Shown in pieces: positions 2,884 through 9,259 of a DNA stretch of 11,567 nt. The position numbers were made by a program, and so were the translations under genes. How positions within the stretch are numbered: position 1 is the first letter of the stretch; each line of letters begins with the position of its first letter. This DNA comes from a bacterium (lineage in GTDB: Bacteria > RBG-13-66-14), in NCBI GenBank assembly GCA_035528375.1, contig DATKYS010000025.1, positions 1-11,567 of the forward strand. The letters run 5' to 3'. The notes under the pieces were generated by a model that was given only the letters and a program-made list of their open reading frames with translations, ran no database searches and was not told the DNA's origin.

Positions 2884-3132
2884 GTGGCCAAACAGAGCAC
2901 CGCCGAGGGGGCCAAATCCCTGGCCGAGAAGCTGGTGGACGGTATAATCGCCGAGGCCGACGGCGACACCCTGGAGCAGGCGCGGGCCATGGGGCTGGTT
3001 CTCTCCATGTTCATGCCGCAGATAGAAGCCGCGCGGAAGGCTTACAACACGGGGACGGACAAGGGCATAGACGGCCGCGACGACATCTTCGAGAACGCCG
3101 TCACCCGCAAGCTCATGGGGTACCACACGTAG
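2884..3132 (+). CDS. Small helical protein of unknown function
   Basis: This 82-residue protein starts at GTG. The start is fixed by a strong GGGGAGG Shine-Dalgarno at 2869-2875, eight bases upstream, and by the promoter at 2812-2840. I do not recognise the family. It is soluble and probably mostly helical: an amphipathic N-terminal part (residues 1-25, with AKSLAEKLVDGIIAEAD), a hydrophobic helix near 35-46 (AMGLVLSMFMPQ), and a charged C-terminal part. It has no signal peptide, no cysteine and no obvious metal or nucleotide motif. The TAG stop lies inside a GTAGGGG word identical to the edge of the repeat family that follows, so the present C-terminus may have been set by repeat insertion. 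It is not clearly in an operon with the LptF/LptG gene. Confidence 0.75.
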   Translation: MAKQSTAEGAKSLAEKLVDGIIAEADGDTLEQARAMGLVLSMFMPQIEAARKAYNTGTDKGIDGRDDIFENAVTRKLMGYHT

Positions 3133-3490
3133 GGGACCTGCGGTTTGCGATGACGTAGGGGCGGGTGTCCACACCCGCCCGTTTCACATTCCCGGCCTCG
3201 ACCCTCACCCTAACCCGTCGGCGCGCTTGCGATGGCGTAGGGGTGGGTCTCCTGACCCGCCCGCGGGCCGACCTAAAGGTCGGCCCCTACGAGGGTGTCG
3301 TAAAATTTCAATTCGACTCGTAGGGGCGTACCTTTAGGTGCGCCCGTTTTTGATAAGGCAGCCCTCACCCCGGCCCATTGCGATGACGTAGGGGCTGGTC
3401 TCCTGACCCGCCCGCGGGCGACCGTGGACGGTCGCCCCTACGGGTCAGTTTCGCGGTAAACGTAGGGGCGGGTGACCGCACCCGCCCGTG
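3129..3490. repeat. Repeat cluster A: mosaic of GTAGGGG hairpins
   Basis: This fills the gene-free stretch between the small protein and the M16 peptidase. It holds five palindromic units. The unit at 3154-3183 has arms GGGCGGGTGT and ACACCCGCCC. The unit at 3237-3290 is a double hairpin bounded by GTAGGGG and CCCCTAC. The unit at 3319-3371 has a GTACCT/AGGTGC hairpin, a T-run and CCCTCACCCC. The unit at 3388-3441 is a second double hairpin with the same edges. The unit at 3461-3490 is a single hairpin. The linker TTGCGATGACG or TTGCGATGGCG precedes three of them (near 3146, 3229 and 3379). The order hairpin, GTTT, CCCTCACCC, TTGCGATGRC, hairpin occurs twice in tandem. No gene is apparent here. 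Confidence 0.85.
3324..3351 (+). terminator. Hairpin plus T5 tract in cluster A
   Basis: Arms at 3324-3333 (GGGCGTACCT) and 3336-3345 (AGGTGCGCCC) pair with one wobble, and are followed by G and five T at 3347-3351. This is terminator-like on the plus strand. It could stop read-through from 2884-3132 and so insulate the M16 promoter. Confidence 0.5.
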
Positions 3491-3499
3491 CGTCGTATA

Positions 3500-3528
3500 T
3501 GCAACCCCGCGCATTTTTGCGCTATAAT
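3500..3528 (+). promoter_or_regulatory. Promoter of the M16 peptidase gene
   Basis: A perfect TATAAT lies at 3523-3528 within TGCGCTATAATACC. A weak -35 (TGCAAC, 3500-3505) stands 17 bases upstream. The start would be near 3535, giving a leader of about 28 nt. It begins directly after the last hairpin of cluster A. Confidence 0.55.
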
Positions 3529-3562
3529 ACCGGGGAAATCGCAACTCCCGGAGCGTCCCCCC

Positions 3563-6364
3563 ATGCGCAAACCCCTGGTCATCATACTGCTGCTGCTCAC
3601 AGCCGTCTCCGCGCTCGCCCAGAGCGTCCTGCGCACCGAGCTCGACAACGGCCTGGTCATCGTCGCCGCCGAGGTCCACGCCAACCCCACCGTAACCATC
3701 CGGGTCTACGTGCGGACCGGGGGGGTCATCGAGGGCCCCTACCAGGGCGCGGGCATAAGCCACTACTACGAGCACCTCCACGGCGACGGCTCGGAGAGCT
3801 ACACCCAGGAGGAACTGGACACCTGGGACGAAACCCTGGGCGGCATCTCCAACGCCTACACCTCCAGCTCCCACACCTGCTACCACCAGACCTCCACGGT
3901 GGAGCACTTCGACGGCATGGTGGCGCTCATGGCGGAAACGCTCCTGCGCCAGGTGTTCACCGCCGAGGCCATCGCGAGCCAGCGTGGGATAATCCTCAAA
4001 GAGATGAACATGAACCTGGACGAGGCGGACACCCGCGCCTGGTACCGCTTCTCCCACACCATCTACCCGGGCTCCCCGGCCGCCGACCCGGTCATCGGCT
4101 ACCCCGACCTGTTCAAGGCGGTGACCGAGGCCGACCTGCGGGATTACTACACCGCGCGCTACACGCCCGAGAACATGGTGGTCGTCGTGGCCGGTGACCT
4201 GGACGCGGAGGAGATGACGGCCAAGGTGGCCGCCGAGTTCGGGGGCGTGGAGCGCTCGGGGGGGACGCTGCCCGTGGTGGAGCGGCCAGCGAACCTGCCG
4301 GGACCGCGATACTGTGTCGAGTACGCCACCTTCGACCAGGCGCACCTCGTGTTCGGCTTCCGCACAGTGCCCATCTGGGCCGATGACCTCTACGCCCTGG
4401 ACGTGGCGATGCACCTCTTGACCACGGGTCGGACGAGCCGGCTGTACAGGGCGTTGCTCGAGGAGCGGCAGCTCGCGACGGACTTCGGTGTTTACAGCTA
4501 CACCCCGACCTTCGACGCCGGGGAGTTCGAGGTGTACCTGGCCGCGGACCCTGCGCGCCTCCCCGAGGCCTACCGGACCGCCTACGACGAGGTGACCGCC
4601 CTCACCGACGGGCTCGCGGACCCCGGCGAGCTGGAGCGGGTGAAGAACTTACTACTTGCAGACTATATCTTCGATGGGGAGAGCCTGGATACGCGGGCGG
4701 CGCGGCTGGGCACCGACGCCCTTCTGGGCGACCTCGAGTTCTCCGCGGGCTACGTGGACGGCTGCCGGGCGGTGACCGCCGAGGCGGTGCGCGACGTCGC
4801 CCGGCGGTACTTCACCCCGGACAACCTCTACGTGGCCGTCGTTTGGCCCACGGGCGCCGGGGACTTCGATCTCGGGCTCTTCGAGGAGGGGCTCGGCGAG
4901 GAGGATTTGATCGAAAGCGGCCTGTCGGCGGAGGCCCGCGGCCTCGCGGCATCGGTGGAATCCAGGGGGATGGTGAAACCCGGTCAGCCGGACGCCTACT
5001 TCGTCTATCAGGGAAAAACCCCGGCGGCGGCTTCGGTCTGGCTCTCCCCCGACTACCCCCTGACCAACACCCTGGCCCTGGATTATCCCGAGGAGTACGC
5101 CTTCGAGATTGGGGAGGGCGGCAAGAGCGGCCGGATGAGGCTGACCACCCTGGACTCGGGCCTGCGCCTCCTGGTGCTGGAGGATCCGGGCGTGGGGAGC
5201 GCCTGGGTGGGGGCCCTGGTGGACGGCGGCTATCGCGTCGAGGCGCCGGAGGATGAGGGCGCCTTCCACTTCGCCATGCGGATGCTCCTGGAGGGGACCG
5301 GGACCCGGACCGGACCGGAGACGGTGGCCGCCATCGAGGACCGCGGCGGGTCCATCGGGAGCCAGGGCCTGCGCGACTGCGGCCTGTTGAGCGCCCACGT
5401 CCCGGCCGCCGACGCCCCCCTGGCCCTCGAGATCGTCACCGACTGCCTGCGCAACGCGATTTATCCCCCCGACCGCGTCGAGGCCGAGCGCCGGAGGCTC
5501 CTCGACGAGTTGGCCCGGGAGGACGAGGAACCATTCACCGTGGCCTTCCGGGAGGCGAAGCGGGCCTTCTTCGGCGACCACCCCTACTCCCACAACCAGC
5601 GGGGGACGCCCGAGACCGTCGCGGCGCTCACCCGGGAGCGGCTGCTGGACTACCGGGACCTCATCCGGCGGCCCGAGGGAACGCTCATCGCCGTGGCCGG
5701 GGACGTGGACGCCCGGAAGATCGAGGACCTGGTCGAGCGGCTGTGGGAGGACGTGCCGGCCGCGGGCACGCCCCTGCCCGAATGCGGACCGCCGAAGTTC
5801 CCCGAAGAAAACCTGCGCCTCGAGCTCCCCTCCGACCGGGAGCAGACGATTCTCGACTGGCTCTGGCCCGGGATGAGCTGGGACGGCGAGGACCGCTACC
5901 GGATGCGCCTTTTGGACGCGGTGCTCTCGGGAATCTACCTGCCCAACGGGCGGCTGCACGCGCATCTTCGCGGGGCGGGGCTGGTGTACGCCGTGCACGC
6001 TTACCCCATCTTCGGGATGAGGCCGGGCGCCTTCGCGCTCTACCTGGGCACGGAGCCGGGCAAGACCGCCGAGGCGGTGGGCATAGTGGACGAGGAGCTG
6101 GAGAGAATCGCCGCGGAGCCGGTGGGCGAGGCGGAGCTGGAGCGCGGCCGGACCATGCTCGAGGTCAGCCGCTACGTCATTGACCTGGCGCGGCCCTCGG
6201 ACCGCCTCCTGGACGCCGCCTTCTACGAGCTCTGGGGGCTGGGCTACGCGTTCGAGGAGGATTTCACCGAGGAGGTGGAGGGGGTCACGGCGGAGGATTT
6301 GCAGGATTACGCGCGGTGGCTCTTCTCGCGGCCCGGGGTCTTCCTGCGCTACGGCGCGGAGTGA
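3563..6364 (+). CDS. Secreted M16-family zinc metallopeptidase, two-domain
   Basis: This 933-residue protein has a Sec signal peptide (residues 1-19, cleavage after ALA before Q20), so it acts outside the cytoplasm, probably in the periplasm. M16 (insulinase/pitrilysin-like) enzymes degrade peptides inside a closed two-part chamber. The inverted zinc motif HYYEH is at 67-71, with E147 in LKEMNM placed 76 residues on as the third ligand, the usual spacing. SNAYTSSSHTCYH at 96-108 and TGRTSRLYRALLEER at 288-302 are other family landmarks. The second half repeats the fold from about residue 524 (GRMRLTTLDSGLRLLVLED), but its metal motif is degenerate: HFAMR at 569-573, with neither Glu nor the second His. 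One active and one inactive half in a single chain is known in this family. Start 3563 is supported by GGAG at 3550-3553 and the signal peptide. The gene appears monocistronic between repeat clusters A and B. Confidence 0.93.
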   Translation: MRKPLVIILLLLTAVSALAQSVLRTELDNGLVIVAAEVHANPTVTIRVYVRTGGVIEGPYQGAGISHYYEHLHGDGSESYTQEELDTWDETLGGISNAYTSSSHTCYHQTSTVEHFDGMVALMAETLLRQVFTAEAIASQRGIILKEMNMNLDEADTRAWYRFSHTIYPGSPAADPVIGYPDLFKAVTEADLRDYYTARYTPENMVVVVAGDLDAEEMTAKVAAEFGGVERSGGTLPVVERPANLPGPRYCVEYATFDQAHLVFGFRTVPIWADDLYALDVAMHLLTTGRTSRLYRALLEERQLATDFGVYSYTPTFDAGEFEVYLAADPARLPEAYRTAYDEVTALTDGLADPGELERVKNLLLADYIFDGESLDTRAARLGTDALLGDLEFSAGYVDGCRAVTAEAVRDVARRYFTPDNLYVAVVWPTGAGDFDLGLFEEGLGEEDLIESGLSAEARGLAASVESRGMVKPGQPDAYFVYQGKTPAAASVWLSPDYPLTNTLALDYPEEYAFEIGEGGKSGRMRLTTLDSGLRLLVLEDPGVGSAWVGALVDGGYRVEAPEDEGAFHFAMRMLLEGTGTRTGPETVAAIEDRGGSIGSQGLRDCGLLSAHVPAADAPLALEIVTDCLRNAIYPPDRVEAERRRLLDELAREDEEPFTVAFREAKRAFFGDHPYSHNQRGTPETVAALTRERLLDYRDLIRRPEGTLIAVAGDVDARKIEDLVERLWEDVPAAGTPLPECGPPKFPEENLRLELPSDREQTILDWLWPGMSWDGEDRYRMRLLDAVLSGIYLPNGRLHAHLRGAGLVYAVHAYPIFGMRPGAFALYLGTEPGKTAEAVGIVDEELERIAAEPVGEAELERGRTMLEVSRYVIDLARPSDRLLDAAFYELWGLGYAFEEDFTEEVEGVTAEDLQDYARWLFSRPGVFLRYGAE

Positions 6365-6370
6365 ATAATT

Positions 6371-6652
6371 TCCCCTCCCCCCTGGGGTGAGGGTTGGAGT
6401 GATGAGGGCGGTTTCCCTCTCCCTCCGGGAGAGGGATTAAGGGTGAGGGCCACCTTATAAAAACGGGCCGACCTGAACGGCGCGCCGTCGGTCGGCCCCT
6501 ACGTCATCGCAGCGAGGCATCGGCCGGGGTGAGGGTCGAGGTTGGGAACGGTGAAAGCGGCGGCCCATCGTCTCCCTCTCCCCGTGGGAGAGGGATTAAG
6601 GGTGAGGGCTTCCTTTAATAAAGCGGCGGGGACTAAAGTCCCCGCCCTACGT
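6371..6652. repeat. Repeat cluster B: two composite units
   Basis: This is the gene-free stretch between the M16 gene and pyrE. After a CCCCTCCCCCC/GGGGTGAGGG segment come two composite units in the same order. Unit one, 6415-6503: hairpin CCCTCTCCC/GGGAGAGGG, ATTAAGGGTGAGGGC, CCTTATAAAAACGGG, hairpin with arms GGGCCGACC and GGTCGGCCC, then CTACG. Unit two, 6574-6651: hairpin CCCTCTCCC/GGGAGAGGG, the identical ATTAAGGGTGAGGGC, TTCCTTTAATAAAG, hairpin with perfect arms GGCGGGGACT and AGTCCCCGCC, then CTACG. Between them TCATCGCA and GGGGTGAGGGTCGAGG match cluster A in reverse orientation. No coding frame or RNA gene is apparent. Confidence 0.85.
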
Positions 6653-6687
6653 CCAACGCGATAGCGCGTGGACCGGACCGCGGGTCA

Positions 6688-6717
6688 TTGCGCCCCCGCC
6701 CGGTTCGATGCTATAAT
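6688..6717 (+). promoter_or_regulatory. Promoter of pyrE
   Basis: A perfect TATAAT at 6712-6717 sits in GATGCTATAATGCG, so the TGN extension is present. A partial -35, TTGCGC (6688-6693), lies 18 bases upstream. The predicted start near 6724 leaves a leader of about 28 nt, too short for a classical pyr attenuator. Confidence 0.6.
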
Positions 6718-6751
6718 GCGCCCCGCTCGACCCTCCACCGGGGAGAACCGC

Positions 6752-7339
6752 ATGGGTTACGACCCCCTGCACGACCTGCGCTCCACCGGCGCCCTCCTCG
6801 AGGGCCACTTCATCCTCTCCTCGGGACTCCACTCCAACCGGTACGTCCAGTGCGCCCTCTACCTCCAGCACCCCGAACTCGCCGAGCGGGCCGGGCGGGA
6901 GCTGGCTTTTCTTTTGAAGGAGGCCGACCCCGCGCTGGAGCCCACGGTGGTCATCTCGCCTGCGCTGGGCGGGCTCATCATCGGCCACGAGTGCGGCCGG
7001 GCCCTGGGCGTCCGCGCCGTCTTCGCCGAGCGCGTGGAGGGCGTGATGACCCTCCGCCGGGGGTTCTTTCTCTCCCGCGACGACCGCGTGGTGGTCGTCG
7101 AGGACGTGGTGACGACGGGGAAGAGCACCGGCGAGGTGGTGGAGGTTGCGCGCGGGGCCGGGTTCGAACCGGTGGCGCTGGCCTGCGTGGTGGACCGGCG
7201 CGGCGCCGACGCCCCCCCGATGCCCGCCCCCCTGGTCAGCCTGGCCAGGCTGGACATCGAGGTGTGGAAGCCGGAGGTATGCCCCCTGTGCGCCGAAGGG
7301 GTCCCGGCGGAGAAACCGGGGAGCCGCACGTCCCGGTGA
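6752..7339 (+). CDS. pyrE: Orotate phosphoribosyltransferase
   Basis: This 195-residue cytoplasmic enzyme joins orotate to PRPP to give orotidine monophosphate, the fifth step of de novo pyrimidine synthesis. The N-terminal GHFILSSGLHSNRYVQ is at 18-33, ISPALGGLIIGHE at 68-80, the basic loop FAERVEGVMTLRRGF at 91-105, and the PRPP-binding signature VVVVEDVVTTGKS at 113-125. The C-terminus carries CPLC (177-180) and a KPGSR tail, as I recall for the shorter Thermus-type branch of the family. The ATG at 6752 follows GGGGAG at 6740-6745; the frame is open further upstream but lacks such a site. No other pyrimidine gene is in the window. The next gene lies 140 bases on, so read-through into UDP-glucose dehydrogenase is possible. 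Confidence 0.94.
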   Translation: MGYDPLHDLRSTGALLEGHFILSSGLHSNRYVQCALYLQHPELAERAGRELAFLLKEADPALEPTVVISPALGGLIIGHECGRALGVRAVFAERVEGVMTLRRGFFLSRDDRVVVVEDVVTTGKSTGEVVEVARGAGFEPVALACVVDRRGADAPPMPAPLVSLARLDIEVWKPEVCPLCAEGVPAEKPGSRTSR

Positions 7340-7344
7340 CCGGC

Positions 7345-7460
7345 GGGAACGCCCGGTGGAGACCCTGCTTAGATTATTTATCGCAGCCGCCGCGAGAACC
7401 GGCGGCCCTTCACCCTGAGCGAGCCGTCGCCGGGAGCACCCCGTAGGGGAACGCCCGGTG
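7345..7460. repeat. 14-nt direct repeat bracketing the pyrE-ugd spacer
   Basis: GGGAACGCCCGGTG occurs identically at 7345-7358 and 7447-7460. Between them is a GCCGCCG/CGGCGGC inverted repeat (7386-7392 with 7400-7406) and the word CCCTTCACCCTGAGCG, which I recall from dispersed repeats in other environmental genomes. An A/T patch at 7370-7380 could hold a weak -10 but has no convincing -35. Confidence 0.5.
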
Positions 7461-7479
7461 AGCCACCCCGGAGGAGCTG

Positions 7480-8811
7480 ATGAAGCTTGCCGTCGTCGGA
7501 ACCGGCTACGTCGGCCTGGTGACCGGAGCCTGCTTCGCCGACCTCGGCAACGAGGTCATCTGCGTTGACATAGACGAGAAGAAAATCAAGGCGCTCAACG
7601 AGGGCCGGATTCCGATCTACGAACCGGGCCTGGAGGAGATAGTCCGGCGCAACGCCGACGGGGGTCGCCTGAGCTTCACCACCGACCTGGGCGACGCCGT
7701 GCGGAAGAGCGAGATCATCTTCATCGCGGTGGGGACGCCGTCCATGCCCACGGGCGAGGCGGACCTCTCGGCGGTGCGGGCCGTCGCCGCCACCATCGGC
7801 CGCCACCTGAACGCGCCCGACAAGATCGTCATCAACAAGTCCACCGTCCCCGTGGGCACCGGCGACATGGTCACCGAGATAATCGTGCGGGAGTCCGGCG
7901 GCTCCCACCCCTTCCATGTGGTCTCCAACCCGGAGTTCCTGCGCGAGGGCTCGGCCATCAGCGACTCCATGCAGCCCGACCGGGTGGTCATCGGCTCCAA
8001 CGACGCCTACGCCGCCGAGAAGGTCGCCTCCCTCTACCGTGTGCTGACCAAGAACATCGTCAGCACCGACCGCCTGTCAGCGGAGATGATCAAGTACACC
8101 TCGAACGCCCTCTTGGCCACCAAGATAAGCTTCATCAACGAGATAGCCAACATCTGCGACCTGGTGGGGGCGGACGTGGAGGCGGTGGCCGACGCGGCGG
8201 GGATGGACCACCGCCTGGGCCGCCACTTCCTCAACGCCGGCGTGGGGTACGGCGGGAGCTGCTTCCCCAAGGACACCAAGGCGCTCATAGACACCGCCTC
8301 CAAGTACGGTTACAAGTTCAAGGTCCTGGCCGCGGTGGAGGAGGTCAACGCCCTTCAGCCCAAGCAGGCCCTGGCCAAGCTCAACGGGATGGTGGGGGAC
8401 CTGTCGGGGAAGGTCGTGGCGCTGTGGGGGCTGGCCTTCAAGCCCAACACCGACGACATGCGCGAGGCGCCGTCGCTCACCATAATCGAGGGGATTTTAG
8501 CCCAGGGCGGCCGGGTCCGCGCCTACGACCCCATCGCCCACGAGACAGCGGCCGAGGAGCTAGCGAAGCGGAACCTCTCCATCTCCTTCGCCGGCACCAT
8601 GTACGAGGCCTGCGATGGGGCGGACGCCCTGGTGGTCGTGACGGAGTGGAACCAGTTCAAGGACGCGGACCTGAGTCGGGTCAAGGAGCTGTTGAAGACG
8701 CCGGCGATGGTGGACGGGCGCAACATCTACAACCCGGCGGAGGTGGCCGCGCTGGGGTTCGCCTACGAGTCCATGGGGCGCACGTCCCTGGCCCGGCGGG
8801 CCAACGGCTGA
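7480..8811 (+). CDS. ugd: UDP-glucose 6-dehydrogenase
   Basis: This 443-residue cytoplasmic enzyme oxidises UDP-glucose twice with NAD+ to UDP-glucuronate, a precursor of surface polysaccharides. The N-terminal Rossmann motif GTGYVG is at 7-12 and ends its second strand with the NAD-selective CVDID (28-32). Other landmarks are NKSTVPVGT (119-127), NPEFLREGSAI (150-160), IKYTSNALLATKISFINE (204-221, K205 a conserved active-site lysine), and the catalytic cysteine in GYGGSCFPKD (C261). The C-terminal UDP-binding domain has LWGLAFKPNTDDMREAPS. Length is normal. GGAGG at 7470-7474 supports the ATG. The product is the substrate of the decarboxylase at 9366, but 554 bases of repeats separate the two genes. 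Confidence 0.95.
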   Translation: MKLAVVGTGYVGLVTGACFADLGNEVICVDIDEKKIKALNEGRIPIYEPGLEEIVRRNADGGRLSFTTDLGDAVRKSEIIFIAVGTPSMPTGEADLSAVRAVAATIGRHLNAPDKIVINKSTVPVGTGDMVTEIIVRESGGSHPFHVVSNPEFLREGSAISDSMQPDRVVIGSNDAYAAEKVASLYRVLTKNIVSTDRLSAEMIKYTSNALLATKISFINEIANICDLVGADVEAVADAAGMDHRLGRHFLNAGVGYGGSCFPKDTKALIDTASKYGYKFKVLAAVEEVNALQPKQALAKLNGMVGDLSGKVVALWGLAFKPNTDDMREAPSLTIIEGILAQGGRVRAYDPIAHETAAEELAKRNLSISFAGTMYEACDGADALVVVTEWNQFKDADLSRVKELLKTPAMVDGRNIYNPAEVAALGFAYESMGRTSLARRANG

Positions 8812-8827
8812 AACGACCGCAAAACTC

Positions 8828-9259
8828 CGTAGGGGCGGGTGTCCACACCCGCCCGTTTTGTCCCCCTCCCCCCTTTGGGGGGAGGCTCGCCTACGGGTCG
8901 GGAGGGGGGTGCGGCGGCCCCCTCTCCCTTCCAGGGAGAGGCTCGCCTACGGGCTGGGGTGAGGGTCGGGGTGAGGAATGTCAAAACGGCGACCCACGGT
9001 TTCCCTCTCCCCGTGGGAGAGGGTCAGGGTGAGGGCTTCCTTATAAAAAACGCGGGGGGAAAGGATTTGCTTCGCATAGCTCGCTTCGCTCGGTTCCCCG
9101 CCCTACGGAATTCGATTGAATCACGCGACAACCTCGTAGGGGCGGGCCGACCGCATGTCGGCCCCTACGTCGAAAATGCGCGATTTCAGGCCGTAGGGGC
9201 GACCGGTAGGACGAGTCCTCCACGGTCGCCTGCGGGCGGGTGTGGACACCCGCCCCTAC
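8828..9259. repeat. Repeat cluster C between ugd and the decarboxylase
   Basis: This is a gene-free stretch of repeat modules. The unit at 8828-8858 matches the first hairpin of cluster A (3154-3184) over 31 bases. GAGGCTCGCCTACGGG occurs twice, at 8882-8897 and 8938-8953. A composite unit at 9003-9107 has CCCTCTCCC/GGGAGAGGG, GGGTGAGGGC, TTCCTTATAAAAAACG and a GCGGGG/CCCCGC inverted repeat with a long interior, ending CTACG. A 29-base linker leads to a GGGCCGAC/GTCGGCCC hairpin bounded by GTAGGGG and CCCCTAC (9136-9168). A double hairpin with the same edges follows at 9193-9259. The open frame across this region has repeat-derived composition and I do not call it a gene. Confidence 0.85.
8833..8859 (+). 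terminator. Possible terminator of ugd, repeat-derived
   Basis: A perfect 10-bp hairpin (arms 8833-8842 and 8845-8854) is followed by G and four T (8856-8859). It begins about 21 bases after the ugd stop. The T-tract is short and the hairpin belongs to the repeat family, so termination is plausible rather than certain. Confidence 0.45.

Follow-up and report, generated by a model that had tools for sequence, protein, structure and literature searches.

What are the repeats that crowd the gaps between genes in this stretch of DNA, and how did the same parts come to stand there in different orders and orientations? The window, that is, the whole stretch analysed, is an 11,567-nucleotide contig (C25; GCA_035528375.1, DATKYS010000025.1) of a 2.63-Mb draft genome. 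The gaps between its genes house all three repeat clusters (3129-3490, 6371-6652 and 8828-9259). The genes are all ordinary: an 82-aa ORF (2884-3132), for which no Pfam match was found, an M16 peptidase, a phosphoribosyltransferase, a UDP-glucose dehydrogenase-type protein and an epimerase, together with what we take, from reading its ORF, to be an LptF/G-like permease.

A preliminary description had pictured the clusters as REP/BIME-like arrangements of shared hairpin modules belonging to no named family that it recognised. All the parts that it named were found, at or within 1-2 bases of the positions it gave, and their sharing among the clusters is real, but they comprise two unrelated repeat kinds plus linkers rather than one family, and both kinds already have names. 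The hairpins fit the superfamily of GTAG-tagged REPs (Di Nocera et al. 2013, PMC3733652), with which they share the GTAG tag, a palindrome of 20-40 nt, high copy number and extragenic location. The part formed by CCCTCTCCC/GGGAGAGGG and GGTGAGGG is, as its sequence indicates, the PIT/TM intrastrand-triplex motif (PMC4666352), which is distinct from REPs. The elements are listed below under these names, with their window coordinates and strand.

3129-3135, + strand: degenerate GTAG REP head; the 82-aa ORF stops at its TAG (3130-3132)
3145-3154, + strand: linker TTGCGATGAC, flush 5′ of a GTAG REP; further copies at 3227-3236 (as TTGCGATGGC) and 3378-3387
3155-3180, + strand: GTAG REP, class B (GGGTG-TCCA), a type that also flanks RAYT L112 of the sister genome G001
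3237-3262, + strand: GTAG REP, TCCT loop; half one of a heterotypic head-head dimer
3265-3290, - strand: GTAG REP, class A (CGACC-TTTA); half two of the dimer, its partner 2 nt away
3320-3345, + strand: GTAG REP, class A variant (GTACC-TTTA), followed by GTTTTTGATAAGG; terminator-like
3388-3413, + strand: GTAG REP, TCCT loop; half one of a second heterotypic dimer
3416-3441, - strand: GTAG REP, class B (GACCG-TCCA); half two of the second dimer, of a type that flanks G001 RAYT L112
3462-3487, + strand: GTAG REP, class B variant (GGGTGACCGCACCC)
6415-6450, + strand: PIT/TM intrastrand-triplex motif, type B, with C at its end; fits the consensus of PMC4666352
6465-6502, - strand: GTAG REP, class A, 38 nt, carrying the palindrome GACGGCGCGCCG as an insert next to its loop; the frame is PIT-B / REP / GTCATCGCA
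6574-6609, + strand: PIT/TM motif, type B; a degraded half-REP (GCGGCGGCCCATCG) stands before it
6625-6650, - strand: GTAG REP, class C (GGGGACTTTAGTCCCC), terminator-like, of a type that flanks RAYTs L114 (G001) and L115 (G002)
8829-8854, + strand: GTAG REP, class B (GGGTG-TCCA), followed by GTTTT; terminator-like
9003-9036, + strand: PIT/TM motif, type B; two positions differ by eye from the E. coli copy CCCTCTCCCTGTGGGAGAGGGTCGGGGTGAGGGC
9052-9106, - strand: class C REP interrupted by a hairpin module nested in it (CCGAGCGAAGCGAGCTATGCGAAGCAAA)
9144-9168, - strand: GTAG REP, class A-like (CCGACATGCGGTCGG)
9193-9230, + strand: class B (GACCG) REP with an enlarged loop; half one of a dimer
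9234-9259, - strand: GTAG REP, class B (GGGTG-TCCA); half two of the dimer

The first cluster thus contains seven full GTAG hairpins and the degenerate one at 3129, while the three units of the form CCCTCTCCC..GGGAGAGGG..GGGTGAGGG (6415-6449, 6574-6608 and 9003-9035) belong to the other two. The stop codon that the GTAG head supplies to the 82-aa ORF is the same in the sister species G002, and not in G001. Some REPs carry inserts of their own. For instance, GACGGCGCGCCG is placed constantly beside the loop of class A REPs of the 38-nt form, at 6465-6502 and in other copies, as if this loop were an insertion hot spot. Likewise, the hairpin module CCGAGCGAAGCGAGCTATG, nested in class C REPs, is found elsewhere in the genome sample (L035, L045 and L092), and an insert resembling it is present at the orthologous locus of G001.

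A scarcity of copies elsewhere in the genome would, according to the preliminary description, have spoken against its reading. Copy number was judged by defined patterns, reversed-pattern controls and hairpin typing, and REP types, linkers and frames were counted in sampled stretches amounting to 513 kb of the 2.63 Mb. The pattern GTAGGGGC-N(8-26)-GCCC has 502 matches in the genome, against 97 for its reversed form, so copies are far from few and well above chance. In the sample, 193 REPs could be typed, which scales to roughly a thousand copies in the genome. They fall into some twelve arm types, and TTYA, TCYA and TC-pyrimidine are the three chief classes of loop. Several contigs end in or beside REPs (e.g., C17:2-27, C28:1-26 and C20:19-44); consequently, the assembly probably breaks there and the counts may be too low. 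REPs avoid coding sequence: ORFs, as called by a crude procedure, contain only 30 of the 193 in a sample that is 83% coding. Divergent gene pairs are their rarest setting. Hairpin patterns of the GTAGGGGC type are also strongly enriched in distant genomes (G029, G053, G060, G073 and G140), with 821 matches against 34 for the control in G140 and, in G029, arms visibly different from those of the window REPs.

Which enzyme could have spread these elements? The search for a Y1 (TnpA_REP/RAYT-type) transposase that the preliminary description proposed was positive: the window genome has one such gene (L001:1429-1899), bordered on either side by these REPs, of class A type (GTAGGGGCGGACCTTCAGGTCCGCCC lies upstream, two GTAG REPs lie downstream), and no second RAYT was found in the genome. 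The REP/BIME-like organisation is therefore borne out, by GTAG REPs together with a Y1 enzyme that matching REPs flank. The protein scores 109.4 bits with the RAYT equivalog model NF047646 (cut-off 80) and 42.3 with the IS200 model, under the cut-off of 55, and it matches the solved E. coli TnpAREP (4er8, E=3e-8). H71 and H73 (the HUH motif) and Y129 are invariant across 10 aligned RAYTs, and the position of Y129 suggests that it is the catalytic tyrosine. An HUH motif, a conserved tyrosine and cognate REPs on both sides are likewise characteristic of the RAYT/TnpAREP REPtrons (PMC8266576, PMC2817692), and the TTYA loop resembles the T-T-N-A loop that, by measurement, the Marinomonas enzyme requires (PMC8266576). 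Unlike those systems, the present lineage is a distant one, with 31-45% identity to the other RAYTs aligned.

The single RAYT leaves the other REP classes to be accounted for. In the sister species G001, RAYT L112 is flanked by GGGTGTCCACACCC and GACCGTCCACGGTC, which are TCCA-loop types, and RAYT L113 by GGGGTTTCCTAACCCC, of the TCCT type, while GGGGACTTTAGTCCCC (TTTA, class C) flanks both L114 of G001 and L115 of G002; the G002 RAYT copy has an internal stop codon. REPs of classes B and C flank RAYTs in the sister species only, and not in the window genome, but every REP type found beside the sister RAYTs (loops TCCA, TCCT and TTTA) occurs in the window and its genome. The simplest reading is that several RAYT/REP families have been active in the genus and that the window preserves their deposits, whereas the genome lacks most of the enzymes, which were presumably lost from it. 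That REPs can outlast their RAYT is already known: Pseudomonas and Stenotrophomonas (Nunvar et al. 2013, PMC3686654) also have REP classes without a RAYT while related strains retain the enzyme. By contrast, here the genus is uncultured, and deeply separated RAYT clades, rather than one orthogroup, are involved.

The association extends beyond this genus. Among 80 related RAYT loci from named genomes of many phyla, a GTAG/GTGG hairpin lies within 250 bp at 55, and on both sides at 38. The loop class is clustered on the RAYT tree, with 14 changes against 26 when shuffled (as low in 0 of 200 shuffles). Of 63 distinct TTNA-loop REPs beside RAYTs, 61 have a TTYA loop and 60 close it with a C-G pair, whereas each of the next five stem pairs takes all four Watson-Crick types; as hairpin detection demanded pairing, the perfect stems are partly so by construction, and what is informative is the variety of pairs and the constancy of closing pair and loop. 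A near-fixed C-TTYA-G loop with many Watson-Crick stem combinations accounts for the “arm types”, and these patterns suggest that RAYTs recognise their flanking REPs by the loop. A strict rule of one loop for one RAYT clade is ruled out, since G001 L114 groups with TC-loop RAYTs and yet is flanked by TTTA REPs. A RAYT-model match is found in 26 of 28 REP-rich genomes and in 59 of 117 others (Fisher test, p=1.4e-5, with a REP-rich threshold set by hand once the counts were known); in the REP-rich genomes G016 and G045 there is none.

The second repeat kind, PIT/TM, has its CCCTCTCCC hairpin at 147 sites in the genome, against 3 for the control. As in PIT/TM_ECO (Holder et al. 2015, PMC4666352), the copies match CCCTCNCCC N3-6 GGGNGAGGG N3 GGGNGAGGG with type A or type B endings, although the second spacer is 5 nt instead of 3 nt in some of them, and one window copy is nearly identical to an E. 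coli copy. The motif is known in E. coli and more than 260 genomes, and triplex formation by the E. coli copy has been shown in vitro, but it has no known mobilising enzyme and no known RAYT link (PMC4666352). It is also present in the genus and sporadically in other genomes, some of which have no RAYT match, the PIT-rich G108 and G137 among them, and PIT is therefore independent of REPs in origin. Transposase-flanking inverted repeats have a GGGGWSAS motif (PMC3733652) to which GGGGTGAG conforms, and a RAYT was therefore considered as the mobiliser of PIT. This candidate was rejected, since no PIT directly adjoins any of the RAYT loci examined and G108 and G137 lack a RAYT-model match.

In addition to single copies, REPs form pairs. 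The preliminary description had noted that the double hairpins at 3237-3290 and 3388-3441 have their first hairpin in common but not their second, and this is indeed so: the TCCT-loop hairpin is present in both, and the second is CGACC-TTTA in one and GACCG-TCCA in the other. Their centre is GCCC-GC-GGGC; in the third double hairpin (9193-9259), hairpin one is enlarged. The sample contains 18 clean head-head dimers (36 of the 193 REPs), every one of two different types, with the centre GCCCGCGGGC or a near variant of it. Although no homodimer is found among them (one overlapping self-match was left out), an avoidance of homodimers is unsupported, as 2.3 calls would be expected against the one made (p=0.3). 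Head-head dimers spaced 1-5 nt, heterodimers, several families per genome and RAYT-adjacent REPs are all known in the GTAG superfamily (PMC3733652); what differs here is that dimers are a minority, all heterotypic, and that many REPs are part of PIT composites. The string GTAGGGG is absent from the main text of that paper. As in BIMEs and REPINs, REP orientation alternates, and conserved spacers and other motifs are present. However, most REPs of a REPIN system stand in same-type inverted pairs, and classical REPINs fold into one long perfect hairpin, which the pairs here, being heterotypic, do not.

Taken together, we consider it highly probable (roughly 0.88) that the clusters are BIME-like mosaics in which GTAG REPs spread by RAYTs of several lineages are combined with PIT/TM motifs as composite units. 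In this model, GTAG REPs would be non-autonomous palindromes whose tag and loop are read, as a single-stranded hairpin, by a Y1/HUH transposase (RAYT), which would copy or move them mostly into intergenic sites, with a preference for the 3′ ends of genes. As only the GTAG and the loop would have to stay constant, while the stem need only pair, arm types could multiply. Several RAYT lineages in the genus would each have had their own REP loop class, and the window genome would keep only the TTYA-loop RAYT, the REPs of the others remaining as deposits. PIT/TM motifs, an independent repeat, would have joined with REPs into larger composites. That these RAYTs move these REPs, and the manner in which the composites formed, we infer from the arrangements described.

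How, then, could the composites have arisen? In the sample, the linker TGCRATGAY lies flush 5′ of 45 of 186 REPs, which include members of classes A, B and C as well as unassigned ones; its overall frequency would predict about 0.01. The slot in TTGCGATGAC-[REP]-GTTTTTATAAGG.AGCCCTCACC is filled by A_CGACC, A_GGACC, A_INS38, B_GGGTG and C_GGGG, although full frames are few. Three REP classes thus stand in register in the frame TTGCGATGAC-[REP]-GTTTTTATAAGG-PIT, suggesting either that one REP is exchanged for another or that modules insert only at REP ends.

Exchange in a conserved frame, whether through single-strand exchange mediated by RAYTs, recombination between the shared GTAGGG/GCC ends or template switching, is a possible explanation that we hold at less than even odds. 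Apart from the shared slot, it is favoured by the absence of empty frames from the sample, by the T-tract/AAGG/CCCTCACC frames, which are nearly all directly 3′ of a REP (classes A, B and C), and by the REPs that follow PIT motifs: of 49 PIT motifs, 20 are followed on the 3′ side by a REP at most 45 nt away, and these REPs, of 8 types, have the same orientation in 20 of 20 cases. However, modules inserting at REP ends alone would produce the same pattern, a swapped REP was seen at none of the orthologous loci, and upstream and downstream frames co-occur for class A (10 of 12, p=0.007), with no clear link for B and C. The bolder proposal, that REPs spread by hairpin-for-hairpin exchange in register between RAYT families at existing REP sites and not by fresh insertion, seems unlikely.

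Alternatively, the linker and PIT may be separate elements that insert at REP ends, so that REPs would be landing sites and the frame secondary, an account that we regard as tentative to a similar degree. The T-tract/PIT side occurs with every REP class, some type B copies of PIT abut a half-REP, as if inserted into one, and REPs are reported as insertion-sequence targets, according to the title of a reference cited in PMC3733652. Nevertheless, no enzyme is known for PIT (PMC4666352), and G108 and G137 are rich in it with no match to the RAYT model.

Whichever way the composites formed, the mosaic reading has to be weighed against the improbable view that the hairpins were kept as transcription terminators at gene ends and multiplied incidentally. 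At least four Ts lie within 12 nt of the 3′ end in 53 of the 193 REPs, against a run of As on the 5′ side in 8, and three window REPs are terminator-like by score; however, about three quarters of the REPs lack the T tract, those with T tails show no clear co-orientation with the upstream gene, and the window's 6 terminator-like sites are little above the 3.5 (sd 1.9) of shuffled sequences. RAYT flanking and the class structure would, moreover, be left unexplained.

Although multi-part stretches are common to the clusters, their origin from one recent duplication of a single block, which the preliminary description had offered as the competing account, is extremely improbable given hundreds of copies in varying order genome-wide and the different sets of modules at the orthologous loci of sister species. 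At the orthologous sites of G001, G002 and G003 gene order is kept; G001 and G002 hold different modules, and no recognised module is present in G003. The parts were therefore reassorted, and not copied as one block.

The clusters are thus of a kind already known, and the least expected observation is that several REP families of one genus are interchangeable in one fixed frame. Such fixed composites with GTAG REPs set the PIT copies here apart from PIT/TM_ECO, the frame being absent at the one E. coli locus examined (at 164.5 kb). The finding links a triplex motif of E. coli with the REP composites of an uncultured lineage. Published SELEX results on REP recognition have a natural counterpart in the C-TTYA-G loop, which is nearly fixed across many phyla while the stems vary. 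The way in which RAYTs mobilise REPs inside cells is poorly understood (PMC8266576). The mixing of REP classes in register is the part worth following, as the genus has both several RAYTs, each matched to its REP class, and frames with a shared slot, in which exchange and insertion could be tested against each other.
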